Below are positions 3,071 to 16,498 of a stretch of DNA of 64,000 nt, one piece after another. Numbering within the stretch: position 1 is the first letter of the stretch; every line of letters starts with the position of its first letter. This DNA comes from Maribacter aquimaris (GTDB lineage Bacteria; Bacteroidota; Bacteroidia; Flavobacteriales; Flavobacteriaceae). The DNA is taken from contig NZ_JABTCF010000002.1 in assembly GCF_014596745.1 (NCBI RefSeq), positions 62,001 to 126,000 of the forward strand. Direction: 5' to 3'. The translations under genes were made by a program, and so were the position numbers. Below the pieces are notes generated by a model, which saw nothing but the letters and a program-made list of their open reading frames with translations, was not told where the DNA came from and did no database searches.

Positions 3071-3955
3071 TTAAGCTATAACCTTTAGACTTTCTTTTAA
3101 AACCTCTAAATGCAATTCTACAGGGTTTGTTCTCTTCAATTCGCCATCCAGCTCAAAAATGATTTCTATGTCCTGATTTTCTATTTTTATTGTAGCATTT
3201 TTAACCCTATGATAAGAATATTCCTTGATTTTATGCTCGTATTTGAGTAGAAATAAAAATGCGAAATAAAGGATTTTAAATTTATTCAATCGATCAATTA
3301 TCACAACATCCAGAAATCCGTCATTTAAAATTGCCTTTCTTGTAATGGAGAAATTATAGCCCATGATATTGGTGTTCGATATGAAAACTAAAAAAGGGTT
3401 TAAGACCGCTTCTTTCCCATTAATTTCAATGGTGTATTTTGCATCATTTTTAAATGACCTGATTGATTGTAAAGTTGCTTTTAGATAAGTAAACAATCTT
3501 CTGTTCGAAGAGCTTTCAAAATTTGAAATCGTATTGGCGGCAAATCCAAAACCAATGTTGCTGAAAAAATATTCCCCATTGATTCTACCTACATCAATAG
3601 AGGTAGCTTTTTGCTCTTTGATGCGTTGAATGGCTTTTTTTATGTTTTTCGGGATTTTAAGGTTTCTTGCCAACCCATTACCTGAACCAATAGGGATAAT
3701 CCCAAGTAATATCTTAGAATTGACCAAACAGGATGCTACTTCGTTGATCGTGCCATCACCCCCACAGGCAACGATGATTTCAGCTTTTTCGTTTATGGAC
3801 TGTTGTACTAAAAGTGTCGCATGTCCTTTATAGGAGGAATGTTTTACAACAATTGAAAAATAGTTCTTTTCAAAATATGCCGATAGATAATGCTTTGTAA
3901 TTCGGGACTTCCCTTTACCGGCAATTGGATTTACTATGAAGTGGACTATTTTCAT
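3071..3955 (-). CDS. diacylglycerol/lipid kinase family protein (YegS/BmrU type)
   Basis: The 294-residue soluble protein has the DAGK catalytic-domain signatures: IVNPIAGKGKS near residue 7, the nucleotide-binding GGDGTINEV at 65-73, and IPIGSGNGLARNL just after. It should phosphorylate a lipid (diacylglycerol, or a sphingolipid-like or other lipid alcohol) at the inner face of the membrane using ATP. It is the last gene of the pump operon and overlaps the preceding LTA-synthase-like gene by four bases (ATGA). A lipid kinase next to a phosphoglycerol-type transferase is logical: that class of enzyme releases diacylglycerol, which a DAG kinase would recycle. That coupling is inference. Confidence 0.88.
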   Translation of the reverse strand: MKIVHFIVNPIAGKGKSRITKHYLSAYFEKNYFSIVVKHSSYKGHATLLVQQSINEKAEIIVACGGDGTINEVASCLVNSKILLGIIPIGSGNGLARNLKIPKNIKKAIQRIKEQKATSIDVGRINGEYFFSNIGFGFAANTISNFESSSNRRLFTYLKATLQSIRSFKNDAKYTIEINGKEAVLNPFLVFISNTNIMGYNFSITRKAILNDGFLDVVIIDRLNKFKILYFAFLFLLKYEHKIKEYSYHRVKNATIKIENQDIEIIFELDGELKRTNPVELHLEVLKESLKVIA

Positions 3956-5919
3956 TCGTTCACTTTTAAGGATAGTCCGTTATTATTGTACAGATGGTCG
4001 GCCACTTGAAAATATGAAATGGTTTCTTTAAGAAAATCTTGGTTCATAGGCTTTGCAACCAAACTATTGTCATCTCTTTTCCAATTATAGAAATTAGCCT
4101 GTTTTTGATCCCCTAAGATCATAAGTTCATGACCCTTTAATAATCCTAATTTTCTATAGTTGCCAATAAAGGCACGTTCATCAGTCTCTTCCATTTTTAG
4201 AATGTCCTGTCCAAAAAGGTTACTTTCATAAGTCCAGTCCAATTGTGCAAATAATGTGGGGAAGATATCGACTTGGGAACAAAGTCTGTCAATATGTTGT
4301 TGTTCTACACCATCAAGATTTAATATCATTGCCGGAATATGATAATTGGCTACATCGAGTTCCCAACGACCTGCACTGCTGGCACAATGGTCTGCCATTA
4401 ATATGAAAACGGTATTTTTAAACCAAGGTTTTTGTTTTGCATTTCTTAAGAATTCTTGAATTGCGAAATCGGTATATTTAATGGCTCCGTATCTTCCTGT
4501 ACCTGATGGAATACTAATTTTATTGGCGGGATAAGTGTATGGCTTATGGTTCGAAGTAGTCATTATAAAATCAAAGAAAGGCCGTCCTGTGGCAAAGGCC
4601 GAATCGGCTTCTTTTATTACCTTTTTATAAATATCTTCATCACAAACCCCCCAGGCATTTTCAAAAGTTACTTCTTCATCCGCGATATTCTTACGATTGG
4701 TTACAATATCTGCAGATGGTAGAAACCCTCTTCCCCTGTCCACAATGTCAAATCCATTACCACTGAAATATTTGTCCATATTGTCAAAATATCCGTCGCC
4801 CCCATAAAAGAACGTCCTTGAGTATCCTTTACCCCTGAATACCTCGCCAATAGTAAAGAGATTATTATTTTTCTTTCGTTTAACAATACTTCTCCCAGGC
4901 GTTGGGGGAATTGAAAGTGTAATGGCTTCCATTCCGCGAACTGTCCTAGTGCCAGTTGCCATTAAATTGTCGAACGATAGTCCCACTTGCGATAAGGAAT
5001 CCAATGTTGGGGTTAACATATTTTCATTGCCAAAAGCCCCCAAATATTTTGCACTTAAACTCTCAATGCAAATAAAAATAATGTTAGGTTTCTTCTCTTC
5101 ACCATCATTTCTAATATATCTACGTATGCCCGTAGATGGCGCATAGATGCTGTCTTGAAAAGTTTTTATGTTTTCATTTACCTTTAAGAACGCTTCTTTG
5201 ATTGGCTCGGTTTTGTAAAACTCAGGATAGCTAAGTTCATTATTCCGAAAAGCTGCAAAAAAAGAATAAATACCTGCTTTTGAAAGCTCATTGTTATAGC
5301 GATTATCTGAAATCTCGGCATTTTCATTTTTGATAAACAAAGTAAAAATCAAGGCAATACCCAATATGATTACACTTGGCAGTAAGCGGATTTTAAATGG
5401 ATCTGTGCTTTCAAAAGTTCTCTTGAATATTCGTAATCTTATAAAGAGTATAACCGTAAGCATGACAAGTATTCCTATACTTCCAATCAAAATAGGTATA
5501 GGATATGATTCATTTATATTCTTAACGACCTCGTAAGTGTATATTAAATAGTCAACTGCAATAAAATTGAATCTTCTCTGGAATTCTTCCCAAAAAGTGA
5601 TTTCTGCAAAGAATGAAAAGAAGATTATTAGCACGCCCACTATAAAGCCTGTATAACAAATAATCCTATCTGCCATAGTACCATTAAGACCTTTGGGTAC
5701 TATCAAAAAATATAAAGTAGCGATTAGGGCAAAAAATGAAACGGTACCGATATCGTAAAAGAGCCCAATAAGGAATGTGGTAAACACGGTAATAACACCA
5801 TGGTCGATTTCTGAAAAATTCCAAATAAGAAAAATGACTCTCAATAACAACGAAATTCCTAGGAACAAAAGGATGAAGCCTTTTAACAATTCGAACCGTT
5901 TTGTAAATCCTATTTTCAT
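3952..5919 (-). CDS. LTA synthase-like sulfatase-fold phosphotransferase
   Basis: This 655-residue protein has about five N-terminal membrane segments (roughly residues 10-30, 45-70, 80-105, 140-160 and 180-200) and a periplasmic alkaline-phosphatase/sulfatase-fold domain from about residue 275. Visible motifs are IFICIESLSAKYLGAFGNEN, the expected threonine nucleophile region GTRTVRGMEA, FFYGGDGYFDNMD, and ADHCASSAG with metal-ligand Asp-His. Related enzymes transfer phosphoglycerol or phosphoethanolamine from lipids to glycans, lipid A or polymers. It overlaps the HD-domain gene upstream and the lipid kinase downstream by four bases each. Its acceptor is unknown; envelope modification during metal stress is inferred from context. 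Confidence 0.88.
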   Translation of the reverse strand: MKIGFTKRFELLKGFILLFLGISLLLRVIFLIWNFSEIDHGVITVFTTFLIGLFYDIGTVSFFALIATLYFLIVPKGLNGTMADRIICYTGFIVGVLIIFFSFFAEITFWEEFQRRFNFIAVDYLIYTYEVVKNINESYPIPILIGSIGILVMLTVILFIRLRIFKRTFESTDPFKIRLLPSVIILGIALIFTLFIKNENAEISDNRYNNELSKAGIYSFFAAFRNNELSYPEFYKTEPIKEAFLKVNENIKTFQDSIYAPSTGIRRYIRNDGEEKKPNIIFICIESLSAKYLGAFGNENMLTPTLDSLSQVGLSFDNLMATGTRTVRGMEAITLSIPPTPGRSIVKRKKNNNLFTIGEVFRGKGYSRTFFYGGDGYFDNMDKYFSGNGFDIVDRGRGFLPSADIVTNRKNIADEEVTFENAWGVCDEDIYKKVIKEADSAFATGRPFFDFIMTTSNHKPYTYPANKISIPSGTGRYGAIKYTDFAIQEFLRNAKQKPWFKNTVFILMADHCASSAGRWELDVANYHIPAMILNLDGVEQQHIDRLCSQVDIFPTLFAQLDWTYESNLFGQDILKMEETDERAFIGNYRKLGLLKGHELMILGDQKQANFYNWKRDDNSLVAKPMNQDFLKETISYFQVADHLYNNNGLSLKVNE

Positions 5920-6512
5920 CTTATTCGTATTAATTGTTTTAGTTTGTTTAAATTTTCTTGTTTCCCTTTTTCCAAGACCTCTTTACCGTATGTGGTCTTA
6001 AACCGATACTCCTCCAGAAATTTAATATTGAGGAGATGCCATTCGTTATCGGTCATAACGGTGTCACAAAATAGTTCCCATTCCTTTCGCAAGAGCATAT
6101 TCCTGTACATGTAATTAGTGGTTCCCAGATGGAACAAATCGGCATCGCAAAGTACTTTCTCATATACATCCATAGGATTTTGGGGCATCTTTGTGGCATC
6201 GATACAAGAAAGCACCCTTTCAATTTCGGTTTGCGGACAATTGGCTTTTGAAAGATATTGAGTAGCCAATCGTTTACTTACTTCTTCGTGTCCTTCATAG
6301 GTTTCCGAGAAACCTGTATCATGAAAGCAAGCCGCAATAGCTATGAAATCCACTTCTTTTGGTTGTAATCCTATGGCATTGGAAATCAAAAAAACGTTGT
6401 CGATTACTTCTTGCGTATGGGCAAAGTTGTGGAAGGGGAGATTCTTACATTTGTCATTTTGAAGTATCTCCGAACAATACCTCGTAATGCTTTTAATTGT
6501 CATCGCTGTCAT
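5916..6512 (-). CDS. HD-domain phosphohydrolase family protein
   Basis: The 198-residue cytoplasmic protein has an HD-superfamily metal site: HNFAHT (His28, His32), the HD pair in ACFHDTGF (His64-Asp65), and His75 in YEGHEEVS. A later Asp in CDADLFHLG completes the pattern. Families of this form hydrolyse phosphate esters of nucleotides or nucleotide second messengers, but the substrate cannot be read from the sequence. It overlaps the 162-residue membrane-protein gene by 20 bp and the LTA-synthase-like gene by 4 bp, so translation is probably coupled. The start at 6512 gives MTAMTIK; the second Met (6503) is also possible. Confidence 0.8.
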   Translation of the reverse strand: MTAMTIKSITRYCSEILQNDKCKNLPFHNFAHTQEVIDNVFLISNAIGLQPKEVDFIAIAACFHDTGFSETYEGHEEVSKRLATQYLSKANCPQTEIERVLSCIDATKMPQNPMDVYEKVLCDADLFHLGTTNYMYRNMLLRKEWELFCDTVMTDNEWHLLNIKFLEEYRFKTTYGKEVLEKGKQENLNKLKQLIRIR

Positions 6513-6981
6513 TGTCCGGGTCTAAATGAATCATATCAGCATCATGTCTAATTTCAGTATGGCGAATCACACCTCCACTCAATCCTACATATTTGGAAAT
6601 TATTGTCGAGGTTATAGCGAGTATCAGAACAATTGAAAAACAATATTTAGTATATTTTGATTTTTTATGGAGTAGAAACAGAGCGGCAAGGGACACCCCT
6701 CCTAAAATCAAAATAGTGGTAAAAAACAACTCTGCATATTCTTCATGGTTATGTAAAAGTGTCTCGCTTACTCCAGGAAAATCCTCAACAATTTCCGCAG
6801 CCCCTTCACCTGTATTAAAGGCAGCAATGGATGTTAAGGCACTGAATACAAAAATACCCAGTGATGTGTTCTTTACTTGGTGGTTCTTTATGATATAGCC
6901 TGAAATCAATACCAGAAAACCAACCAAAACACCAACAATGGGTAGATGGTTTATCACTAAATGTATATTTGCGTCGTTCAT
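6493..6981 (-). CDS. DUF2231-like four-helix membrane protein
   Basis: The 162-residue protein has four predicted membrane helices and a His/Asp-rich cytosolic or periplasmic tail (RHTEIRHDADMIHLDPDNDSDDN). Its N-terminus, IHLVINHLPIVGVLVGF, is built like that of the DUF2231 protein at 13484-13951 (IHAMVIHFPIALILVGF), and both also carry a mid-protein His-Glu-Glu (HNHEEYA versus LHEEAA). The two are therefore probably paralogs under one regulator. The His-rich tail could bind metal. It lies 30 bp after the adaptor gene in the pump operon. The function of this family is not established; a heme or metal redox role is a guess. Confidence 0.75.
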   Translation of the reverse strand: MNDANIHLVINHLPIVGVLVGFLVLISGYIIKNHQVKNTSLGIFVFSALTSIAAFNTGEGAAEIVEDFPGVSETLLHNHEEYAELFFTTILILGGVSLAALFLLHKKSKYTKYCFSIVLILAITSTIISKYVGLSGGVIRHTEIRHDADMIHLDPDNDSDDN

Positions 6982-7011: not shown

Positions 7012-8181
7012 TTACTCTGTTATCAAGTTAAATGCCCCATTGGTTAGAAATTCCGTGTTTGGTTTAAAATCAGCTGCATTAAGGATTTGGGTAAATCCAT
7101 TATTTGTAGCACCTATTTTGACCAATACCCTTTTGAAGTTTGTATTATCTTTTTTTACAAGTACAAAAAAGTCATTATCAATGTTCGATACAGCTTCGGA
7201 TGGTAATGCTGGATATTCTGCTGAAGTGGTCAGGATTTCAGCCTCAATGTACATTCCAGGGGCAAATAGTTGTACTTCCTCATCATTTACAAGATCCCCA
7301 TGTATCTCCACGGTTCTACTTTGGGCATTTATCGACTTGTTGACTAAATGAACCACTCCTTTATATACATTGCCCGTGTCGTTTTGCAATCTTACATTGA
7401 TTTGCTGCCCTTTTTTGACCATAGGTAGGTCCTTTTCGAAAATCTTCAATTCTATGTGAAGGTCGTCGGTATTGGTAACGGTTACAGCAACATCAGAAGG
7501 GTTTAGGTACATTCCTTTACTTGCGTTTATTGTAGTCGCATACCCTGATAATGGTGAAACTACACTAATGACTGACCGAATATTTTCGCCCGTAAGGGTA
7601 TTCGGATTGATGTTCATAAGGCTCAACCTCTTTTTAAGGGATTGATATTGTGCCATGGTCACGGTATATTCCGATTCAGCCTTTAAGAAATTCTTTTGGG
7701 AGGTGACATTATCCGCCATTAACTCTTTCTGGCGTTCATAATCGGATTTCAAATAGCTCAAACGTCCTTTGGCTTCCAAAAAATCTTGTTGCACCTGAAT
7801 ATATTCTGGGTTTTCAATGGTGAACAATACTTGACCTTTTTCAACCTTATTCCCAGGTAATAGATTGATGTTCTTTACATAGCCGGCAAAGTAGGCGCTA
7901 ACATCGGCTTGGTTCTGTGGGGGTACTGCGAACATACCGTTCGCTTTCACAACTGTATTGAACTCTTGCATCGATATTTTCCCCAAATCCATTCCACCAG
8001 ATTTAAATTGATTTTCGGTAATTATTATTGCATCTTGGTCTTTAATCCCCATCGTTACACCTGTGTTGGCCGTTTCTGGTTTTACTTTTGGGTTACAGGA
8101 AGCCAATGTTAGTGTCAGCAGTAAAAGAATGCTTGTTAAACTTATAACATGGGTAAAATTGTTGACTATATCTTTCATCAT
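7012..8181 (-). CDS. RND efflux periplasmic adaptor (membrane-fusion protein), lipoprotein
   Basis: This 389-residue CzcB/CusB-type adaptor links the inner-membrane pump to the outer-membrane channel. It has a lipoprotein signal ending LASC (Cys29). Next come a split barrel/lipoyl region (VKANGMFAVPPQNQADVSA, then GYVKNINLLPGNKVEKGQVL), a helical hairpin (residues about 125-190), a second lipoyl half (VVSPLSGYATTINASKGMY) and beta-barrel domains. Its ATG overlaps the stop codon of the fused pump gene by one base (TAATG), indicating translational coupling. Conserved His/Met metal-binding extensions typical of CusB are not obvious. Lipid anchoring would place it on the periplasmic face of the inner membrane. 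Confidence 0.92.
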   Translation of the reverse strand: MMKDIVNNFTHVISLTSILLLLTLTLASCNPKVKPETANTGVTMGIKDQDAIIITENQFKSGGMDLGKISMQEFNTVVKANGMFAVPPQNQADVSAYFAGYVKNINLLPGNKVEKGQVLFTIENPEYIQVQQDFLEAKGRLSYLKSDYERQKELMADNVTSQKNFLKAESEYTVTMAQYQSLKKRLSLMNINPNTLTGENIRSVISVVSPLSGYATTINASKGMYLNPSDVAVTVTNTDDLHIELKIFEKDLPMVKKGQQINVRLQNDTGNVYKGVVHLVNKSINAQSRTVEIHGDLVNDEEVQLFAPGMYIEAEILTTSAEYPALPSEAVSNIDNDFFVLVKKDNTNFKRVLVKIGATNNGFTQILNAADFKPNTEFLTNGAFNLITE

Positions 8182-11100
8182 TAATTGATTAAATAATTTA
8201 ATTCTAAAACTGTGGCGTTATACTCATTAAGGTTCTGTAGATAGGTGATTTGAATATTTTTGGCACTTTCCAATAGCTGTACATACTGTAAGAAATCTAT
8301 CTCTCCGTTTAGAAATGATTTTGATGCACTTGTAGTTAATTCTTCTGCTAGTTTGCCACCAGTGGTTTCATAATAATCAACGGCCTCTTGGAATTTCTTT
8401 AAATCGGATAGCAAGGCTTGATACTTTGATGCCAATTGTATTTTGTAATTTTCAGACTCATCGGCCATTATCATAGTCTCTGTTTTTGCCGCATTGATTT
8501 TTGCCTTGTTCGCCCCGAACCATAACGGAATCGAGACACCCGCCTGGAAACCATTGTATCGCTTCGCATTAACACCATTATTAGTGCCCTGAAAGACTGA
8601 CATATGTAAATCTGGAAGTAATCTTTGCCTTTCCAAAGAGAGAGAGGATCTACTCAGTTTTTGAGCGGAATCGTAATACAGTATTCCAGGATGATCACCA
8701 AAATTCGGTTGTTGTAATTCCAGTTTGGGTAAACTGTTCTCTTCTACGATAATCAACGAATCTGTCTGCATCCATTGATATAGCATCGTAGATGCTTTTG
8801 CCACGCCTGCTTTAGTTTGTGCAAGCAAAATGGATATTTCTTTTTGCTTGGCCTCTGCCGTAAGTTTTTCCAATAAATTGGTTTCCCCTACAGCATATCG
8901 CTTATCGGCAGCCTTGGAAAACTGACCATAGAGACTATCTAGAAATTTGTATTGTTCTACAAGACTGTTATTGTATACCACATTGTAATAGGCTTTATAA
9001 ACCTCTTTGGTCAAGGTTCTTTCATTTAATCGGTACTGTTGGTTTGATAACTCAACCTTATATTTTTCTACCTTACGTTGGGCACCATAAATCGTTGGGA
9101 ACTGTAAGGACTGGCTAATTCCGAAAACATCCAATGGAAGCCCGTTATCCGCAATATTATTTTCGTCGGAACTATAATAAACTTGGGTTTTATCCAAGTT
9201 AAAAGCACTTCCAACCAATTGTTCGGATTGCTGCACTCTTTTGGCAGAAGCTTTAAGTCCATAATTGTTCTCAATCGCAATTAGAACTGCTTGTTCTGCA
9301 TTGATAGTGCTCTGTTGGGCACTTCCGACAACCGGTAAGAATATTAAGGCTATGATACCAAGTACTTTTAAATTTATTTTTTTCTTGATCTTAGGATGAT
9401 GCCCCTTCCTATCGAACATTGCATATAGGATAGGTAGTACGATTAGGGTCAAAGCTGTTGCCGTAATCAGTCCACCCACAACAACTGTTGCCAAAGGTCT
9501 CTGTACCTCTGCCCCTGCTGAGGTCGAAATTGCCATAGGCAAAAAGCCCAAAGCTGCTGCTGCTGCTGTTAACAATACAGGGCGCAATCTGTTTTTAGTT
9601 CCCATTAAAATTCGCTTATTAATATTGCTGACACCGTGTGCTTTGAGCTCCTTAAATTCTTCGATCAACACAATACCGTTTAGCACGGCAATCCCAAAAA
9701 GGGCAATAAAGCCTACACCTGCCGAAATACTAAACGGTAAACCTCGTAAGTAAAGTAACATAACGCCACCAATGGCGGACAGAGGAATAGCACTATAGAT
9801 CATTAAGGCTTCCTTTACGGAATCGAAAGCAAAATAGAGTAAGACAAAAATCAGAACCAGTGCGATTGGAACTGCGATTTTCAATCTAGCCGTTGCGGTA
9901 CGTAGATTTTCAAATTGCCCTCCATAACTTATAGAATAGCCGGTCGGTAGTTTAATATCCCTTTCTATTATGCTCTGTACATCCTTAACCACCGATTCTA
10001 AATCGCGATTACGAACGTTTACACCTACTACGATGCGCCGTTTTGTATTATCACGTGAAATTTTAGCTGGTCCTTTGGTATAACTTATTTTAGCGAATTC
10101 GCTTAATGGTAATTTCATTCCATTGGGTAATGATACCGAGGCCGTTTCTATGTTTTCAATATCCCTTCGGTGGGCATCATCATAACGAATCACCATATCG
10201 AATTGCTTTTCACCTTCGAAAACAGTTCCTGCGGGCATACCTGCAAAACCCATGGTGACAACTTTATTCAAGTCTTCGATATTCAAGTTGTACTTAGCAA
10301 TTTTTTGTCTGTTATATTTAACGGTCATTTGAGGTAACCCAGCAGTTTTCTCAACGGAAATATCGGCAGCACCTTCGACGTTTTGGATTGCTTTTTCTAT
10401 TTCTAAGGCTTTATTATAGAGAACATCCAGATTCTCACCGAAAACCTTAATGGCCAAATCTGCACGTACTCCTGTAATCAATTCGTTGAATCTCATTTCG
10501 ATAGGTTGGGTAAACTCGAAATCGACACCGGCTATTTCGGATAGGGCATCCTTAAATTTATCGGCTAATTCGTCCTTGGTCTCTGCGGAAACCCATTCCC
10601 CTTTTGGCTTCAATTTGATGATGACATCACTTTCTTCCATTGACATTGGGTCTGTTGGAACTTCAGCAGCGCCTATTCGACTTACAACCTGCTCCACTTC
10701 GGGGAATTTCTTCAATATTTTTTCCATTCGAGTAGTAGCCTCAATGGTTTTACTTAATGATGTTCCCGTTTTCAATACAGGTTGAATTACAAAATCACCT
10801 TCGTCCAATGTAGGCACGAATTCGCCTCCCATTCTAGTGTATAGAAATGCAGTAATTGCCAACAAACCTATAGCCATACCCAATACCAATTTCTTTTTAC
10901 GCAATGCCCAAGAAATAGTGGGTTGGTATTTTTCTTCAAGAAATGCGATTAGTTTGGATGAAATCGTTCGTTTTTCGGTATTTGAAGGTTTGATAAACAA
11001 AGAAGCCATTACTGGAATGTATGTAAAACACAGTACCATGGCACCTGTGAGTGCAAAACTGAATACCAAAGCCATTGGGCGGAACATTTTACCTTCTACA

Positions 11101-12515
11101 TTTACCAAAGAAAGAATAGGAATGAATACGATGATAATGATCAACTGCCCAAAAACTGCAGAGTTCATCATTTTAGACGCACCTTGATATGTGATTTGAT
11201 CTATTAAGCCTTGCCTTTGGTTTTTTGGAAGAGCCAATAATTTAGTTCGTTGATTGGTGATTTTAAAGGCAATAAACTCAACAATGATCACTGCACCATC
11301 GATGATTATTCCAAAGTCTATCGCCCCTAAGCTCATCAAGTTGGCATCTACCCCAAAAATGTACATTAAGGAGAGGGCAAAAAGCAAGCTCATTGGAATA
11401 ACCGATGCTACCACTAAACCAGAGCGTAGGTTGCCCAAAAGTAGTACTACTACGAAAATCACGATTAAACATCCCAAAATCAGGTTTTCCGCAATAGTAG
11501 CTGTGGTTTTCGCAATAAGTTCGCTCCGCTCTAGAAAGGGATTAATAGAAATGCCTGGAGGTAATGATGATTGTATTTCAGCCACACGTTGTTTAACCGC
11601 TTCTATAACAGCATTAGAGTTGGCATCCTTCAGCATCATTACCTGTCCCAATACTTTTTCTCCCTCACCGTTTCCTGTAATTGCGCCAAAACGGTTGGCA
11701 TGACCAAAGCCTACTGTAGCAATATCCCTTACAAAGACGGGTATATTTCCTGTACTGGTTACTACAATGTCTTCAATATCCTGTACGGAACCCACAAGTC
11801 CTTCACCTCTTATAAAGTAGCTTTCATTAGCTTTTTCTATGTAACCGCCCCCGGCAACGCTATTGTTTTTTTCCAATGCACTGAACACATCAAAGATGGA
11901 TACGTTCATGGAGCGAAGTCGTTCAGGGTTAATAGCAACCTCATAGGTCTTTAAATAGCCTCCCCAAGTATTTACTTCTACCACGCCTGGAATGCCTGAA
12001 AGTTGACGTTTTACCAACCAATCCTGAATGGTACGCACATCAGATAAAGAATACTGTTCCTTATGTTTTGCATCAACATCTATTACATATTGATAAATTT
12101 CACCCAAGCCTGTGGAAACAGGACCCATAAATGGTTTGCCAAAACCCGCGGGGATTTTTTCTTCAGCACTTTTTATTTTTTCTGCGATTAGCTGACGGGG
12201 TAAATATGTACCTAAATTATCATCGAAGACGACTGTAACAACCGATAGACCAAACTTGGAAACGGAACGTATTTCTTTTACCCCCGGTAAGTTTGCCATT
12301 TCTAACTCTACAGGGTAAGTCAAAAACTTTTCTACATCTTCAGTAGCCAGATTTCTGGAGGTTGTGATGACCTGTACCTGGTTGTTGGTTACATCGGGTA
12401 CCGCACCTATAGGAATATTGGATAAGGAATATAAGCCAAAGCCAATAATACCCGCAGTAAACAAGAGAACTATGAGTTTGTGGTGTATACTGTATTGGAT
12501 AATACGTTCTAACAT
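8181..12515 (-). CDS. czcA: CzcA-type heavy-metal RND pump fused to a TolC-like outer-membrane factor
   Basis: Residues 1-1045 form a complete 12-helix HME-RND proton antiporter. Its TM4 signature, DFGIIIDGAVIIVE (residues 400-413), is of the divalent-cation (Zn/Co/Cd) class rather than the Cu/Ag class. Residues 1048-1066 form a hydrophobic segment ending GSA-Q that looks like a signal peptide with a cleavage site. Residues 1067-1444 (378 aa) are a TolC/CusC-type outer-membrane factor (EQAVLIAIENNYGL, AYYNVVYNN, AGVSIPLWFG). The frame is continuous. The first gene of the operon, it is preceded by a four-repeat operator and a -7 box. Such fusions occur elsewhere in Bacteroidota; processing into two proteins is inferred. 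Confidence 0.93.
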   Translation of the reverse strand: MLERIIQYSIHHKLIVLLFTAGIIGFGLYSLSNIPIGAVPDVTNNQVQVITTSRNLATEDVEKFLTYPVELEMANLPGVKEIRSVSKFGLSVVTVVFDDNLGTYLPRQLIAEKIKSAEEKIPAGFGKPFMGPVSTGLGEIYQYVIDVDAKHKEQYSLSDVRTIQDWLVKRQLSGIPGVVEVNTWGGYLKTYEVAINPERLRSMNVSIFDVFSALEKNNSVAGGGYIEKANESYFIRGEGLVGSVQDIEDIVVTSTGNIPVFVRDIATVGFGHANRFGAITGNGEGEKVLGQVMMLKDANSNAVIEAVKQRVAEIQSSLPPGISINPFLERSELIAKTTATIAENLILGCLIVIFVVVLLLGNLRSGLVVASVIPMSLLFALSLMYIFGVDANLMSLGAIDFGIIIDGAVIIVEFIAFKITNQRTKLLALPKNQRQGLIDQITYQGASKMMNSAVFGQLIIIIVFIPILSLVNVEGKMFRPMALVFSFALTGAMVLCFTYIPVMASLFIKPSNTEKRTISSKLIAFLEEKYQPTISWALRKKKLVLGMAIGLLAITAFLYTRMGGEFVPTLDEGDFVIQPVLKTGTSLSKTIEATTRMEKILKKFPEVEQVVSRIGAAEVPTDPMSMEESDVIIKLKPKGEWVSAETKDELADKFKDALSEIAGVDFEFTQPIEMRFNELITGVRADLAIKVFGENLDVLYNKALEIEKAIQNVEGAADISVEKTAGLPQMTVKYNRQKIAKYNLNIEDLNKVVTMGFAGMPAGTVFEGEKQFDMVIRYDDAHRRDIENIETASVSLPNGMKLPLSEFAKISYTKGPAKISRDNTKRRIVVGVNVRNRDLESVVKDVQSIIERDIKLPTGYSISYGGQFENLRTATARLKIAVPIALVLIFVLLYFAFDSVKEALMIYSAIPLSAIGGVMLLYLRGLPFSISAGVGFIALFGIAVLNGIVLIEEFKELKAHGVSNINKRILMGTKNRLRPVLLTAAAAALGFLPMAISTSAGAEVQRPLATVVVGGLITATALTLIVLPILYAMFDRKGHHPKIKKKINLKVLGIIALIFLPVVGSAQQSTINAEQAVLIAIENNYGLKASAKRVQQSEQLVGSAFNLDKTQVYYSSDENNIADNGLPLDVFGISQSLQFPTIYGAQRKVEKYKVELSNQQYRLNERTLTKEVYKAYYNVVYNNSLVEQYKFLDSLYGQFSKAADKRYAVGETNLLEKLTAEAKQKEISILLAQTKAGVAKASTMLYQWMQTDSLIIVEENSLPKLELQQPNFGDHPGILYYDSAQKLSRSSLSLERQRLLPDLHMSVFQGTNNGVNAKRYNGFQAGVSIPLWFGANKAKINAAKTETMIMADESENYKIQLASKYQALLSDLKKFQEAVDYYETTGGKLAEELTTSASKSFLNGEIDFLQYVQLLESAKNIQITYLQNLNEYNATVLELNYLIN

Positions 12516-12541: not shown

Positions 12542-12598
12542 CAAATGTATTTGGTGTACCTAAGAGCCATCTAAATGGTTTCTTAAGATTGGCTTAAG
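12542..12598 (-). promoter_or_regulatory. promoter and four-repeat operator of the efflux operon
   Basis: Read on the plus strand, hexamers CTAAGA (12560), CTAAAT (12571), CTTAAG (12582) and CTTAAG (12593) begin exactly 11 bp apart. After a 10-bp gap lies the -7 box CAAATGTA (12542-12549; TACATTTG on the coding strand). No -33 TTG is present at the usual distance, as expected for an activator-dependent promoter. The same layout occurs at 13977-14033 and 16072-16128. The 11-bp period is that of OmpR-family DNA sites, so the regulator encoded at 15399-16067 is the natural candidate. Confidence 0.7.
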
Positions 12599-12633
12599 AA
12601 TGGTTTTCCTTCGGTAAATGATAAAAAACAAAA

Positions 12634-12654
12634 GCCCTGAAAATTATTCAGGGC
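12634..12654 (-). terminator. terminator of the DUF2231-rubrerythrin unit
   Basis: The stem GCCCTGAA (12634-12641) / TTCAGGGC (12647-12654) has a 5-base loop and is followed on the minus strand by a T-rich tail. It lies 43 bp past the rubrerythrin stop codon and insulates the efflux operon promoter from that unit. Confidence 0.75.
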
Positions 12655-12697
12655 CTTTGCCAATCGCTATTAAAAACTAACCATCAATCAAAAGTCT

Positions 12698-13405
12698 TTA
12701 TAGGGCGTCTATTTTAATAAATAATTTTGCATCGGTCATGGAAATTTCACAGCGCGATGGTGCTGTGGTCGCATAGGTGTTCCCACAAGTTGGACATAGA
12801 TAATACACGGAAGGCAATGATTTTACATTTCCTTCTTCCAAAACTTTTAAAGCATTTATGTAAAAATCCCTGTGCTTTTGTTCTACTTTGTATGCATATG
12901 TCAAACTTATTTGTGCCATATAATTACCTGCTGCATTGGCATCCTTGATGAAGTTTGGGTACATTGTATTAAACTCATAGCTTTCGCCTTCAATGGCATT
13001 CTTTAAATTCTCCTTGGTTGTTCCCACACTAAATTCTGGAGTAACGGTTGGTATTTGCTCCCCCATTCTTTGAATAACGACCTTATGATTATTGGCGTGT
13101 ATCAATTCCGCCCCGGATGCAGCCTTGAAAAGCAGCGCTATTTCCGGGTAGCCTTCTTCAGCCGCTTTTTTACTGAAAGCGGCATATTTAGCATGTGCGG
13201 TCGTTTCACCTTTAAACGCATCTTTCATATTTTGAATGGTTGATTTTTGAGGGTCCTCTTTTTCTTTAACTACTGCCATGGCTGTTTCAGCCACTTCTTT
13301 TGAAGGTTTGATTTCAATTTTGTCTACTGTATTATTCTTACAAGATTGAAAAAGCATACTTGAGAATACCATTCCAATTGCCAATACCGCTACTGATTTT
13401 TTCAT
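12698..13405 (-). CDS. lipoprotein rubrerythrin-family protein with altered rubredoxin site
   Basis: The start at 13405 (MKKSVAVLAIG) gives 235 residues with a lipoprotein signal (LFQSC, Cys22); an upstream in-frame ATG at 13444 would bury the signal. The ferritin-like four-helix domain shows the di-iron ligand patterns GETTAHAKY, GAELIHANNH, EGESYEF and VEQKHRDF. The C-terminal rubredoxin-like knuckle has CPTCG but then CEIS, so one of four iron-binding Cys is Ser. Rubrerythrins reduce peroxide. This one should sit in the periplasm on a membrane anchor, downstream of a DUF2231 membrane protein that might feed it electrons (inference). Confidence 0.85.
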   Translation of the reverse strand: MKKSVAVLAIGMVFSSMLFQSCKNNTVDKIEIKPSKEVAETAMAVVKEKEDPQKSTIQNMKDAFKGETTAHAKYAAFSKKAAEEGYPEIALLFKAASGAELIHANNHKVVIQRMGEQIPTVTPEFSVGTTKENLKNAIEGESYEFNTMYPNFIKDANAAGNYMAQISLTYAYKVEQKHRDFYINALKVLEEGNVKSLPSVYYLCPTCGNTYATTAPSRCEISMTDAKLFIKIDAL

Positions 13406-13483
13406 TTTATTTATTTTTAAATATTTGAGTAAGTGTATGTCCACATTTCCGTGGGTTTTCTATATTTTTTATAAGATTCGATT

Positions 13484-13951
13484 TTAGTTGGTTGATTGAT
13501 TTCCAAAATCGGGAAGAGCCAATTCTATACCTGCCCCGTGTTGAAAAACCAATTGCCCACCTAAATATCCTGTTCGTGCCACCGACCCAACTAAGGCAGT
13601 AAATAGGATGATCCCTACCCATTTAGACCACGTTCTTTCAAATTTGAAATAGTACAATGACACGCGAAATAATGCCGTTATAATAGCAAGCCATAACGTT
13701 ATGGTAGCAGCTTCCTCGTGTAGTTCCATGGGTTTTTGTAGAATGCCATCTGTCATTCCGTCCCCAGCATAACTTCCGCTTATATAAGCTACTATGGCCC
13801 CTAAAGCACCTAATAGCAAAAGATAAAATGAGGTATCTTTGAAAAATTGTTTTTTACTGATAAGAGCTATGATTTCTGAGAAAAATCCAACTAGGATCAA
13901 AGCAATCGGAAAGTGGATAACCATTGCGTGAATGTGTGGTGATGTTAACAT
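13484..13951 (-). CDS. DUF2231 membrane protein
   Basis: The 155-residue protein has four membrane helices. The family's N-terminal His pattern is IHAMVIHFPIALILVGF, and a central HEEAA follows. It is 78 bp upstream of the rubrerythrin gene on the same strand, has its own operator and -7 promoter, and resembles the 162-residue protein at 6493-6981. DUF2231 proteins are often found beside metal or redox genes; their activity is not known to me. A role in passing electrons to rubrerythrin or in metal handling is a hypothesis from position only. Confidence 0.85.
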   Translation of the reverse strand: MLTSPHIHAMVIHFPIALILVGFFSEIIALISKKQFFKDTSFYLLLLGALGAIVAYISGSYAGDGMTDGILQKPMELHEEAATITLWLAIITALFRVSLYYFKFERTWSKWVGIILFTALVGSVARTGYLGGQLVFQHGAGIELALPDFGNQSTN

Positions 13952-13976
13952 TTTAATGTGATTTTTAATTACACAT

Positions 13977-14033
13977 CAAATGTATAGGCACCAACTTAAG
14001 ACTGAATTAAGTAAAACTTAAGTTTGGCTTAAA
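13977..14033 (-). promoter_or_regulatory. promoter and four-repeat operator of the DUF2231-rubrerythrin unit
   Basis: On the plus strand CTTAAG (13995), ATTAAG (14006), CTTAAG (14017) and CTTAAA (14028) begin exactly 11 bp apart, followed after 10 bp by the -7 box CAAATGTA (13977-13984). The geometry equals that at 12542-12598 and 16072-16128. The distal repeat overlaps the last codon region of the sensor kinase gene, which ends at 14029. Confidence 0.72.
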
Positions 14034-15402
14034 ATGAGATGGTGAACGTTGTGCCTATACCAAATTCACTATCTACATAAATTTTGGCGTTTATGGCATC
14101 GGCGGCCTTTTTGGCTATGGATAGACCTAAACCGTTTCCCGGGATGTTTTTATGGTTTAGAGCATCGGATCTAAAAAAGCGTTTGAACACATTATTTAGA
14201 TCCTCTTTTTTAATACCGATACCTTCATCTTGGATTTTACAAATTATTTTTGAATCCATACGTGCGATTTCGATATGTATTGTGGAACCCTCCTTAGCAT
14301 ATTTTATGGCATTACCGATAATATTTTCCATGATCAATGTGGTGTAATATTGAGGTGCCATTTCTTCCAATAGAACCCCTTTCTGGAAAGCTATTGTAAG
14401 TTTCTTTTGTAAGATAGGAGTCTTGTTCCTAGAGAGAATTTCGTCTATTATGTTAGGTAAAGGGACCAAAGAACGGTCAACTGTTCTTGAATTGACATCT
14501 AACCTGGCAAGCAGTAAAAGTTGTTCAATCGTGGCGGTCATCCGGTCTATTTCCGTAAGACTAAATTTGATTTTATCCTCATATTCCGATTGCTCTCTGG
14601 GCTTTCGAATCAATACCTCAAGCGTACCTTTTAATGTTGATAAAGGTGTTCGTAATTCGTGGGAAGCATCAGAGGTAAATTGCCGCTTTCTTTCGATAGT
14701 ATTTTCAATACGCTGTAATAGCTCGTTAATGCTAAACGACAAATCGTAGAGCTCATCTTTGTTATGTGGAAGAATAACCCTTTCATTCAAACTATTCTGA
14801 GTAATTCTTTTTGTTGTTTCGGTTATTACCTTTACAGGTATAATCCCCCGCCCTGCCAAGTATCTAGACATGAAATATAGTCCCGCTAAAAGAAATAAAT
14901 AAGAAATAACCAAAACATTTCTTAGATTAAGCAATACCATTTTTGAGGATTCCAACGACATGGCCGCTAGAATAAAGCCTTTGATCTTTCCATTCTGCTC
15001 GATAGGGATTTGAACTTGTCGGATAGCCCTATTGTTGAGGGTTTCGTTAAAGTGACCGCCAAATTTTTGCTCAGGATTGTAAGCGAGGACGTGATTTTTC
15101 AGGTTGGGGGAATTATCCATAAATTTCCCGTTTTTATCCAATATTTGGATAAAAACAGGGTTTATTTGTACTTCTAGGTGCTCCCTTTCTTCCCACTCCT
15201 TTTTGTTCTTTATCTTAATACTATCCCCGACAATCCTTATTTCGTCGGTATGTTTTTCAGCCTCGAAAGATAGGTCATTGTCAAGATTTTGGTATACCGT
15301 TCCCTGCACTACAAAATAAACAACTGTAAAAGCCACGGCCATGGTCACGGCGGTGGCAATCATATAATGTAATGCTATTCTGTTTTTAAAACTTAATCTC
15401 AT
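14029..15402 (-). CDS. sensor histidine kinase, CusS/CzcS-like
   Basis: The 457-residue kinase has two membrane helices (about residues 12-33 and 160-180) around a 125-residue periplasmic sensor. A HAMP linker follows, then the phospho-acceptor helix DASHELRTPLS (His248) and the ATPase blocks N (ENIIGNAIKYA), G1 (DEGIGI), F and G2 (GNGLGLSIAKK). It should sense periplasmic metal or envelope state and phosphorylate the response regulator whose gene it overlaps by four bases. The gene lies beside a CzcA-type pump, which supports a divalent-metal signal, although the sensor domain itself shows no obvious metal motif. Confidence 0.92.
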   Translation of the reverse strand: MRLSFKNRIALHYMIATAVTMAVAFTVVYFVVQGTVYQNLDNDLSFEAEKHTDEIRIVGDSIKIKNKKEWEEREHLEVQINPVFIQILDKNGKFMDNSPNLKNHVLAYNPEQKFGGHFNETLNNRAIRQVQIPIEQNGKIKGFILAAMSLESSKMVLLNLRNVLVISYLFLLAGLYFMSRYLAGRGIIPVKVITETTKRITQNSLNERVILPHNKDELYDLSFSINELLQRIENTIERKRQFTSDASHELRTPLSTLKGTLEVLIRKPREQSEYEDKIKFSLTEIDRMTATIEQLLLLARLDVNSRTVDRSLVPLPNIIDEILSRNKTPILQKKLTIAFQKGVLLEEMAPQYYTTLIMENIIGNAIKYAKEGSTIHIEIARMDSKIICKIQDEGIGIKKEDLNNVFKRFFRSDALNHKNIPGNGLGLSIAKKAADAINAKIYVDSEFGIGTTFTISF

Positions 15403-16067
15403 ATTTCTTTAGCTACATAGCCTACCCCACGAACGGTTTGAATATAGTTTTCATCTTCACTTAACTTTAATTTTTTACGAAGTGCATTAATATATACGTC
15501 AATCACTCCAGTATTGTATTCGAAATGGATATCCCAAACACTTTCAATGATTCGGGTTCTTCGGCAAACTATACCCTTGTTCCGTATTAGATATTCCAAC
15601 AAGGCAAATTCTTTTTGGGTAAGACTAATTTCTTCTTCAGATTTAAAGACTTGATGGGTTGCAGTGTTCAAGGTAATGTTTCCAAGTTTAAAAATGGAAT
15701 GTTCCCCGGATTTGGGTCTTAGTTGGACTTTTATCCGTTCCAAAAGTTCTTCAAAATGAAAAGGCTTTTTGATATAATCGTTAGCACCGGATTGAAGTCC
15801 GAAAATGGTTTCATCAACGGTATCTTTTGCTGTTAAAAATATAACTGGCGTTTCTTTATACTCCTTTCTGAATAGACGACAGATTTCAATACCACTGACA
15901 CCAGGTAACATCCAATCCAATAGCAACAAATCATATTCCCCGGAAAGAGCCAGTTGAAGACCTTTATTGCCTTCATCGGCAATATCCACAGCATATGATT
16001 CTTCTTCCAATCCTTGTTTTAGGAAGTTGAATATACCTGGCTCATCTTCTACGATTAATATTCTCAT
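15399..16067 (-). CDS. OmpR-family response regulator, CusR/CzcR-like
   Basis: The 222-residue protein has a receiver domain (Asp51 in LLLLDWMLPG, Lys in DYIKKPF) and a winged-helix DNA-binding domain (SLTQKEFALLEYLI, YINALRKKL, IQTVRGVGYVA). It is first in a two-gene operon with the kinase. Its own promoter (16072-16128) carries the repeat array also found before the pump operon and the DUF2231-rubrerythrin unit, so autoregulation is likely. Its ATG is only four bases after the -7 box, suggesting a leaderless or nearly leaderless transcript. Confidence 0.93.
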   Translation of the reverse strand: MRILIVEDEPGIFNFLKQGLEEESYAVDIADEGNKGLQLALSGEYDLLLLDWMLPGVSGIEICRLFRKEYKETPVIFLTAKDTVDETIFGLQSGANDYIKKPFHFEELLERIKVQLRPKSGEHSIFKLGNITLNTATHQVFKSEEEISLTQKEFALLEYLIRNKGIVCRRTRIIESVWDIHFEYNTGVIDVYINALRKKLKLSEDENYIQTVRGVGYVAKEI

Positions 16068-16071
16068 ACTA

Positions 16072-16128
16072 CAAAAGTTACGTATTTAAATTAAAGCGAC
16101 ATTAGACTTTTCTTAAGATTTGCTTAAA
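16072..16128 (-). promoter_or_regulatory. promoter and four-repeat operator of the two-component operon
   Basis: On the plus strand ATTAAA (16090), ATTAGA (16101), CTTAAG (16112) and CTTAAA (16123) begin 11 bp apart. After 10 bp comes CAAAAGTT (16072-16079), a one-mismatch form of the -7 box (AACTTTTG on the coding strand). The two weaker hexamers are promoter-proximal, so this is the most degenerate of the three sites. Confidence 0.62.
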
Positions 16129-16498
16129 AAGGTTTTGCAATAATATATGGGTGTTAAAAATGAATCGACTTGGTGTAAACTGAAGGTATTACAATTAACT
16201 GGGGAGAAATTCACTTGTTAATTAAAACAAAGAAGTTTCAGATCTAAATTATAAGATATATTGCTACCGAATAATGTCGTTTTGTAACCTTACACTTTTT
16301 GAAGCATTCCCAAAAACTAGGACTTTATAAAATTAGAATTTCGTAATTCATCCCTTATTTGAACATATATAAAGATAAGAATTTCAGATGATGGACTAAA
16401 TACAAACTCGGTAAGGCTACAAAGGATAAGATAAAATTACCAGGTCTGAAAATGGGGAATTCAATCGTTAGATGCCATTTTATATTATGTAAACCATA
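16129..16498. other. gene-free AT-rich stretch between two operons
   Basis: This holds the 3' flank of the beta-barrel gene and the far upstream side of the regulator promoter. I see no open frame above about 20 codons with coding character, no RNA gene and no clear terminator. Confidence 0.5.

Follow-up and report, generated by a model that had tools for sequence, protein, structure and literature searches.

Phased hexamer arrays as probable operators of an OmpR-family response regulator linking metal efflux and rubrerythrin genes in Maribacter and other Bacteroidota

Introduction

What connects three neighbouring promoters that carry the same ladder of four CTTAAG-like hexamers, set 11 bp apart? 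The promoters lie in a 64-kb stretch of a Maribacter aquimaris contig (the window; all coordinates are positions in it, and the genome measures 4.86 Mb), where they precede the minus-strand operon of a response regulator (RR, encoded at 15399-16067) and its kinase, a DUF2231-rubrerythrin unit and a CzcA-type efflux operon. An earlier note on this DNA had proposed that the arrays define a three-operon regulon of an OmpR-family regulator. From the analysis reported here, we consider it very probable that the arrays are operators of the linked RR, which would bind as two dimers arranged head-to-tail and activate the three operons in class-II fashion. Beyond the earlier note, we describe a fixed distal anchor as against a class-specific proximal pair, a predicted leaderless RR mRNA, a kinase stop codon within an array and a candidate small RNA.

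Results

Re-reading of the sequence bore out the arrays in every particular, from the hexamer positions and the 11-bp spacing to the exact 10-bp gap and the three -7 boxes. The hexamers start at 16090, 16101, 16112 and 16123 in the array of the RR-kinase operon (16090-16128, minus strand), at 13995, 14006, 14017 and 14028 in that of the DUF2231-rubrerythrin unit (13995-14033, minus strand), and at 12560, 12571, 12582 and 12593 in that of the CzcA operon (12560-12598, minus strand). The -7 boxes of the DUF2231 (13977-13984) and CzcA (12542-12549) promoters both read TACATTTG on the minus strand (CAAATGTA on the plus strand); that of the RR promoter (16072-16079, minus strand) is an imperfect AACTTTTG (CAAAAGTT on the plus strand), which overlaps TAACTTTT and ends 4 nt before the RR ATG. 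The promoters had been said to lack a clear -33 element, and TTG is indeed absent from array indices 25-33 of all three, where the usual promoter spacing would place one. In all three arrays the two promoter-distal hexamers are strong (TTTAAG/CTTAAG-N5-CTTAAG) and the two proximal ones are degenerate and vary by promoter class; at the RR operon, distal TTTAAG and CTTAAG are joined to proximal TCTAAT and TTTAAT. The DUF2231 array overlaps the kinase stop codon, with TAA (14031-14029) inside its most distal unit. The pitch agrees with the 10-11-bp direct repeats that had been ascribed to OmpR-type regulators, and the promoters are presumably regulated.

The arrays are real and exceed chance. In a scan of every window position for four phased CTTAAG-like hexamers (maximum score 24), the five highest period-11 scores belonged to 13995 (22), 12560 (19) and 16090 (18) and, again with 18, to two places displaced by one unit from the first array, so that the three arrays are the three best non-overlapping places in the window. 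Periods of 8, 9, 10, 12, 13 and 14 reached at most 17, as did 40 windows of 64 kb simulated with an order-2 Markov model. A 46-column matrix fitted solely to the promoters of RR orthologs gave the CzcA array 30.5 bits and the DUF2231 array 27.2 bits, with a maximum of 11.8 over 40 simulated strands; after removal of near relatives (eight loci, L001, L002, L011, L012, L019, L026, L036 and L054, leaving 63 of the 71 sites) the scores were 30.1 and 27.7 bits. A sequence-only covariance model built from 70 arrays of other genomes (R1) ranked the same three arrays highest in their own genome, with 40.0 (CzcA), 33.3 (RR) and 26.3 bits (DUF2231) on the gene strand and at most 15.4 and 14.3 bits on the opposite strand, as direct repeats would give. 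Among the 150 scored of 3237 first-look candidates, the next match had 15.9 bits and these three alone had E < 0.05.

The earlier note had named conservation in related genomes among the tests of its proposal. We fetched 80 RR orthologs (77-100% identity, the RR of M. polysiphoniae, L001, being 100% identical to that of the window), 79 of them with enough upstream sequence. An array above 12 bits stands upstream of the RR in 71 of the 79, a count for which the matrix was fitted to the same sites and in which some sites reach only 13-20 bits; in 66 of the 71 it starts 62, 63 or 64 bp before the RR ATG. The array-bearing taxa comprise Flavobacteriaceae, Fulvivirga, Cyclobacterium, Saprospiraceae, Crocinitomicaceae, Chitinophagales and one metagenome-assembled genome (MAG) labelled Calditrichota. 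In this last (L078:2698-3360) the RR is 78% identical and the array has 42 bits; transfer and mis-binning could both account for it.

Applied to this DNA and to the related loci, the RR-ortholog matrix recovered both effector promoters here and many elsewhere. Across the 80 loci (1.06 Mb, both strands) there were 143 further sites of at least 10 bits and 116 of at least 20 bits, the latter spread over 73 loci; the counts include a few opposite-strand readings of the same arrays and the near-identical L021 and L023. Three simulated sets yielded, in all, 6 sites at 10 bits and none at 20. On the RR strand, 188 sites reached at least 15 bits, 177 of them distinct, and these fell into 69 RR sites (68 at fetched RRs and one at a further RR copy of L029), 57 CzcA, 11 DUF2231, 6 rubrerythrin, 3 second DUF2231 and 2 HD-gene sites, with 40 that were other, distant or without an open reading frame (ORF). 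Other array-fronted proteins are of the Haem_bd, thioredoxin-like, VIT1, aquaporin and Rieske types, the VIT1 and aquaporin ORFs beginning more than 200 bp after the array. The ORFs assigned to the array at L012:10491 (DUF302) and to the distant CzcA group are probably not direct targets, a candidate RNA coming first. In L021 (a Winogradskyella MAG) and L023 (Patiriisocius marinus) the compared RR-upstream, array and small-RNA stretches are identical, for which mis-binning or recent transfer is possible. Together with co-occurrence of the RR (below), the matrix and the conservation support the proposed regulon of CzcA operon, DUF2231-rubrerythrin unit and two-component pair, and the array observation fits an OmpR-family operator that would tie the three units together.

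The arrays follow a common grammar. The distal pair, approximately TTTTAAGC-N-AATCTTAAGAA, is near-constant in most promoters and species, and all 70 aligned arrays have TTAAG in each of their two distal units, although they were picked with a matrix anchored there. The strongest departure from this consensus is found in the six rubrerythrin sites (TTTTTAATCAATTCTTAAG). The proximal pair differs by class, being CTAAT/TTAA at RR promoters and TTnAG/CTTAG at CzcA promoters. The -7 box starts 9-11 bp past the array in nearly all sites, the best box lying at index 51 or 52 in 55 of 57 CzcA and 11 of 11 DUF2231 sites and at index 50-52 in 68 of 69 RR-labelled sites. TTG at indices 25-31 occurs 5 times among the 69 RR, 17 times among the 57 CzcA and never among the 11 DUF2231 sites; all 17 CzcA cases are at index 25, inside the third unit, and mostly read TTGAG.

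This arrangement of array and -7 box has the layout of a class-II activator, as judged from sequence. In the mechanism that we favour, the kinase would sense metal or redox stress in the envelope and phosphorylate the RR. Two RR dimers would then bind head-to-tail to the four half-sites, which repeat with each helical turn (11 bp) and share one face of the helix. The distal pair would anchor the first dimer; the proximal pair, weaker and particular to each promoter, lies 9-11 bp before the -7 box and would hold the second. Since the proximal pair occupies the -33 position at this distance, the second dimer may serve as a class-II activator of sigma-A RNA polymerase, replacing the missing -33 element. 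The targets would be the CzcA-CzcB operon, the DUF2231-rubrerythrin unit and, by positive autoregulation, the RR-kinase operon itself. The analysis shows the arrays, their geometry and conservation, and their co-occurrence with the RR; that the RR is phosphorylated, binds the arrays and activates instead of repressing, and that it answers to this signal, we infer. No exact TAnnTTTG that might mark a standing promoter upstream of the RR array occurs in 16130-16498 on the minus strand, where four near matches are found.

The arrays might instead mainly repress, with the RR lying over the -33 region and blocking polymerase until a signal releases it. The overlap with that region would allow this, and a graded block, too, would be in keeping with strong distal and weak proximal sites. 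But TTG seldom stands at the expected -33 position, which would leave polymerase dependent on assistance; the spacing to the -7 box is nearly fixed, as suits polymerase contact; and efflux and repair genes are normally induced by such systems. We regard repression as improbable.

Whether the linked RR is the protein that binds was approached through its family and its distribution. The RR (PF00072, 103.1 bits; PF00486, 90.2 bits) combines a receiver with a winged-helix Trans_reg_C domain, as expected of the OmpR/PhoB family, and is the putative array binder. Its best NCBIfam match is cztR_silR_copR (TIGR01387) at 223.8 bits, under the curated cut-off of 279.2, and it reaches 158 bits against the PmrA equivalog NF007928 (cut-off 330); being under both cut-offs, it belongs by curated scores neither to PmrA nor to the heavy-metal subfamily. 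In its recognition-helix region, NTGVIDVYINALRKKL, 13 of 16 residues are invariant in 12 selected, aligned orthologs. Distribution was assessed in a class-wide sample of 149 genomes (RR at E <= 1e-60) and a family sample of 199 (RR at E <= 1e-80), with arrays at E <= 1e-3. The class sample held 11 genomes with the RR and 9 with an array (7 both, 2 array only, 4 RR only, 136 neither; Fisher 4e-8) and the family sample 11 and 13 (9 both, 4 array only, 2 RR only, 184 neither; Fisher 3e-11). The array-only genomes (G038 and G120; G160, G165, G207 and G315) have weak matches (E 8e-5 to 1e-3), and strong arrays (E <= 1e-5) are confined to RR-holding genomes in both samples. In one genome (G089) an array and the RR gene share a contig but are some 368 kb apart, which is compatible with a trans-acting factor. 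The RR is patchy, being found in 11 of the 199 family genomes and absent from the other same-genus genome sampled, a pattern that suggests horizontal movement or loss of the module.

Another regulator could be the main binder, such as one of the four other OmpR-family proteins of this genome, which has five PF00486 matches, and related winged-helix proteins do bind similar repeats. Yet the arrays track this RR across the sampled genomes and sit in its own locus; they precede the RR gene in 71 of 79 loci, and arrays of E <= 1e-5 are absent from sampled genomes that lack the RR. We therefore judge a different binder to be quite unlikely. Least probable of all is that A/T-rich, helix-phased hexamers act as DNA-curvature or UP-like elements without a dedicated protein, since the sequence is conserved beyond composition (TTAAG in both distal units of the 70 matrix-picked arrays), only three strong sites emerged from the candidates scored in a 4.86-Mb genome that is itself A/T-rich, and array presence goes with the RR.

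Several observations weigh against the arrays as activating operators of the RR. Eight of the 79 loci have no scoring RR array (L003, L004, L029 for its first RR, L042, L070, L071, L074 and L076), an array being present elsewhere in the locus in all of these except L074. RR homologs of 59-73% identity occur without a threshold array in G062, G051, G069, G138 and G249. In G095 the arrays are not next to the RR (59% identical): a 37.6-bit array (L168:3818), upstream of a 767-aa ORF, is on another contig and shows no evident -7 box where one would be expected. Co-occurrence is also partly built in, because the R1 training loci were selected for the RR and some sampled genomes seem to be among them (G261 appears to be L017, and G227 to be L020); free of this bias is the finding that genomes without the RR lack strong arrays. 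The genome samples were passed through strict filters, with 31-41 scored candidates per genome, and arrays may be missed. A loose degenerate four-unit pattern (at most 3 mismatches) failed to discriminate, giving 63 matches in this genome and 136 in a backward control, even if the three arrays head its fewest-mismatch matches. Finally, a repressor could in principle act from the same place. Three further matches of the loose pattern (C27:209589, C11:28927 and C25:188436) were dropped because R1 did not list them and the control had more matches.

The RR promoter itself has an unusual form. In 65 of 69 RR-labelled promoters the best -7 box ends 3-5 nt before the ATG, and in CzcA promoters it is mostly 21-30 nt from the start codon (50 of 57). 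A later start of the RR protein is unlikely because MRILIVEDE supplies the receiver domain with its first strand and its acidic pair. In a study of Flavobacterium psychrophilum, the TAnnTTTG box is placed at -12 to -5 and 5.5% of mapped mRNAs are leaderless (PMC9723704). Given that position and the 3-5 nt between box and ATG, the RR start codon is the predicted transcript start, and the RR mRNA would be leaderless, beginning at the A of the ATG.

The overlap of array and kinase stop codon recurs. An array lies within 400 bp of the labelled kinase stop in 68 of 80 loci, and in 41 of these 68 it starts exactly 7 bases before the kinase gene end, the stop forming part of the distal unit; the Maribacter form is TTT TAA G (14029-14035, minus strand). 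The genes behind such arrays vary and encode DUF2231, CzcA, thioredoxin-like, HD or Rieske proteins, or a candidate RNA. Common descent alone could have kept the array at the kinase stop; the noteworthy part is the exchange of downstream genes.

In the window, minus-strand gene order runs from RR through kinase, DUF2231, rubrerythrin, CzcA-outer-membrane-channel fusion and CzcB to a DUF2231-like and an HD-like gene. The kinase (14029-15402, stop TAA at 14031-14029) has the heavy-metal sensor kinase model TIGR01386 as its best NCBIfam match, at 207.4 bits and thus under the cut-off of 292.55. It is followed by the DUF2231 membrane protein (13484-13951, PF09990) and a rubrerythrin-type protein (12698-13405, PF02915), its start taken at the ATG of MKKSV, that contains two ExxH motifs and one CPTC. 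The pump (8181-12515) is a CusA/CzcA-family heavy-metal RND protein (PF00873; TIGR00914, 1143.2 bits, above the cut-off of 701.45) with the DFGIIIDGAVIIVE motif, fused to an outer-membrane efflux domain (PF02321), and the CzcB/CusB-type periplasmic adaptor (PF16576, TIGR01730) occupies 7012-8181. The DUF2231-like membrane protein and the HD-domain-like protein (5916-6981) possibly belong to the CzcA operon. The first has no Pfam match of its own and a relative (L005:10595-11086) that matches PF09990; the second is weak (20.7 bits, cut-off 22), with a relative (L058:9167-9793) that matches PF01966. Farther along the same strand (3071-5919) are a sulfatase-family membrane protein (LtaS/phosphoglycerol-transferase-like) and a YegS-like lipid kinase. 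A defence-system search of four window proteins found none. The DFG-III-DGA motif of the pump presumably resembles that of divalent-cation (CzcA-type) rather than Cu/Ag pumps and, because it looks CzcA-type, Zn, Co or Cd is the first candidate signal; the rubrerythrin and the thioredoxin-like partners suggest redox stress as a candidate as well.

Ten loci (L004, L011, L013, L018-L021, L023, L026 and L054) carry an extra array and -7 box about 200 bp before the CzcA array, with no ATG-started ORF of at least 35 aa between this array and CzcA. Downstream of it lie instead about 125 conserved nt with a G/U-rich conserved segment, ending in a terminator, which we regard as a candidate small RNA; examples with their own arrays are L012:10541-10677, L017:10533-10669 (Aquaticitalea lipolytica) and L004:9083-9221. 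From an alignment of nine of the ten loci plus L024 (A2) we built a covariance model (R2), which matched 41 times across 84 sources, with weak matches and matches to the other strand of the hairpin among them. The 25 that we checked exclude L015, the majority of weak matches and any second match within a locus. An array is upstream in 18 (17 at offset -50, one at -41), two of them weak (L007, 9.4 bits; L010, 11.4 bits), and 15 array-preceded RNAs are distinct after removal of two same-genome repeats and one identical pair. The seven without an upstream array (L001, L002, L005, L008, L009, L059 and L060) lie at the 3' end of rubrerythrin, as does the window match (59.4 bits over 12621-12749). 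Its 5' half is rubrerythrin coding sequence, and the 3' untranslated region (UTR; 12612-12697, minus strand), with an intrinsic-terminator hairpin (fold z -4.8), fits the 3' half of the family. In 12 whole genomes R2 was strong at these loci alone, with weak terminator-like matches elsewhere.

The RNAalifold consensus is a 14-pair terminator only, with double changes in 3 pairs, and three relatives, folded singly, give weak structures (z -2.2, -2.0 and -0.8). No Rfam match at the gathering score was obtained for the candidate RNA in the window, L004, L011 or L021, where L011 gave only a tRNA. Duplex energies of 14 candidate RNAs against the start regions of labelled neighbours gave no sign of targets, the mean z ranging between -0.44 (RR) and +1.81 (DUF2231). 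No conserved ORF was seen by eye within the candidate RNA, an inspection that leaves room for a short peptide in its place. The RNA is unlikely to be a deletion scar, because L012 and L017 keep RNA, DUF2231 and rubrerythrin arrays together.

Discussion

The operator proposed here has partial counterparts among known systems. In E. coli the Pho box is placed some 10 bp ahead of the -10 box, and PhoP of B. subtilis acts on four repeats resembling TTAACA. Pho boxes of PhoB and PhoP are described as 11-nt direct-repeat units with hierarchical cooperative dimer loading and sigma contact (PMC4415409); they share the 11-nt pitch with the arrays, whereas half-site, signal and promoter type (the -7 box TAnnTTTG in Bacteroidota) differ. 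Closer in sequence is the PmrA (BasR) box. Salmonella boxes are CTTAAG-N5-NTTAAT, and Klebsiella PmrA, itself of the OmpR/PhoB family, binds two half-sites head-to-tail, half-1 much more strongly than half-2 (PMC3973317). Half-site and spacing are near-identical to ours, but the PmrA box has two half-sites and the array four, the targets differ, and the RR falls outside the PmrA equivalog. The likeness is one of sites, and contacts may differ: of the base-contacting PmrA residues Asn188, Asn196 and Arg210 (PMC4660055), none is obviously shared by the RR helix region in a by-eye comparison. The CopR/PcoR/CusR/CzcR/SilR subfamily scores best for both RR and kinase and shares the linkage to a CusA/CzcA pump, here one joined to an outer-membrane channel domain. 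Inverted repeats are the reported targets of CopR, PcoR and AgrR, in some cases with an additional in-phase direct repeat for AgrR (PMC7380067); here the array is one of direct repeats, and RR and kinase both score under the subfamily cut-offs. In searches of open-licence PMC papers, judged by titles, abstract openings and some passages, we came upon no description of this operator, though one may exist. In Cupriavidus metallidurans, transcription genes, including an ompR, are over-represented among leaderless mRNAs (PMC7563307); what would differ here is a single RR gene whose near-fixed array-to-ATG distance recurs across many species.

More tentatively, at somewhat less than an even chance, these features may together form a portable control module of the Bacteroidota. 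The anchor over the last codon and stop of the kinase (TTT-TAA-G) would act as a docking port for exchanged effectors (pump, DUF2231, thioredoxin-like, Rieske and HD proteins or a non-coding RNA), beside an RR gene read from a leaderless mRNA and a regulon small RNA, which an array would drive in many species and which in Maribacter would be freed from the 3'UTR of rubrerythrin.

The results suggest that a regulator that scores best in a named subfamily with inverted-repeat binders among its members may work with PmrA-like direct repeats. They also offer a set of testable rules: the anchor pair is strong, the proximal pair depends on the promoter, the -7 box follows at 9-11 bp, the RR mRNA is predicted to be leaderless, and the regulon has a candidate small RNA. 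With these, the probable operator of a Bacteroidota two-component regulator is readable from sequence alone across several orders.

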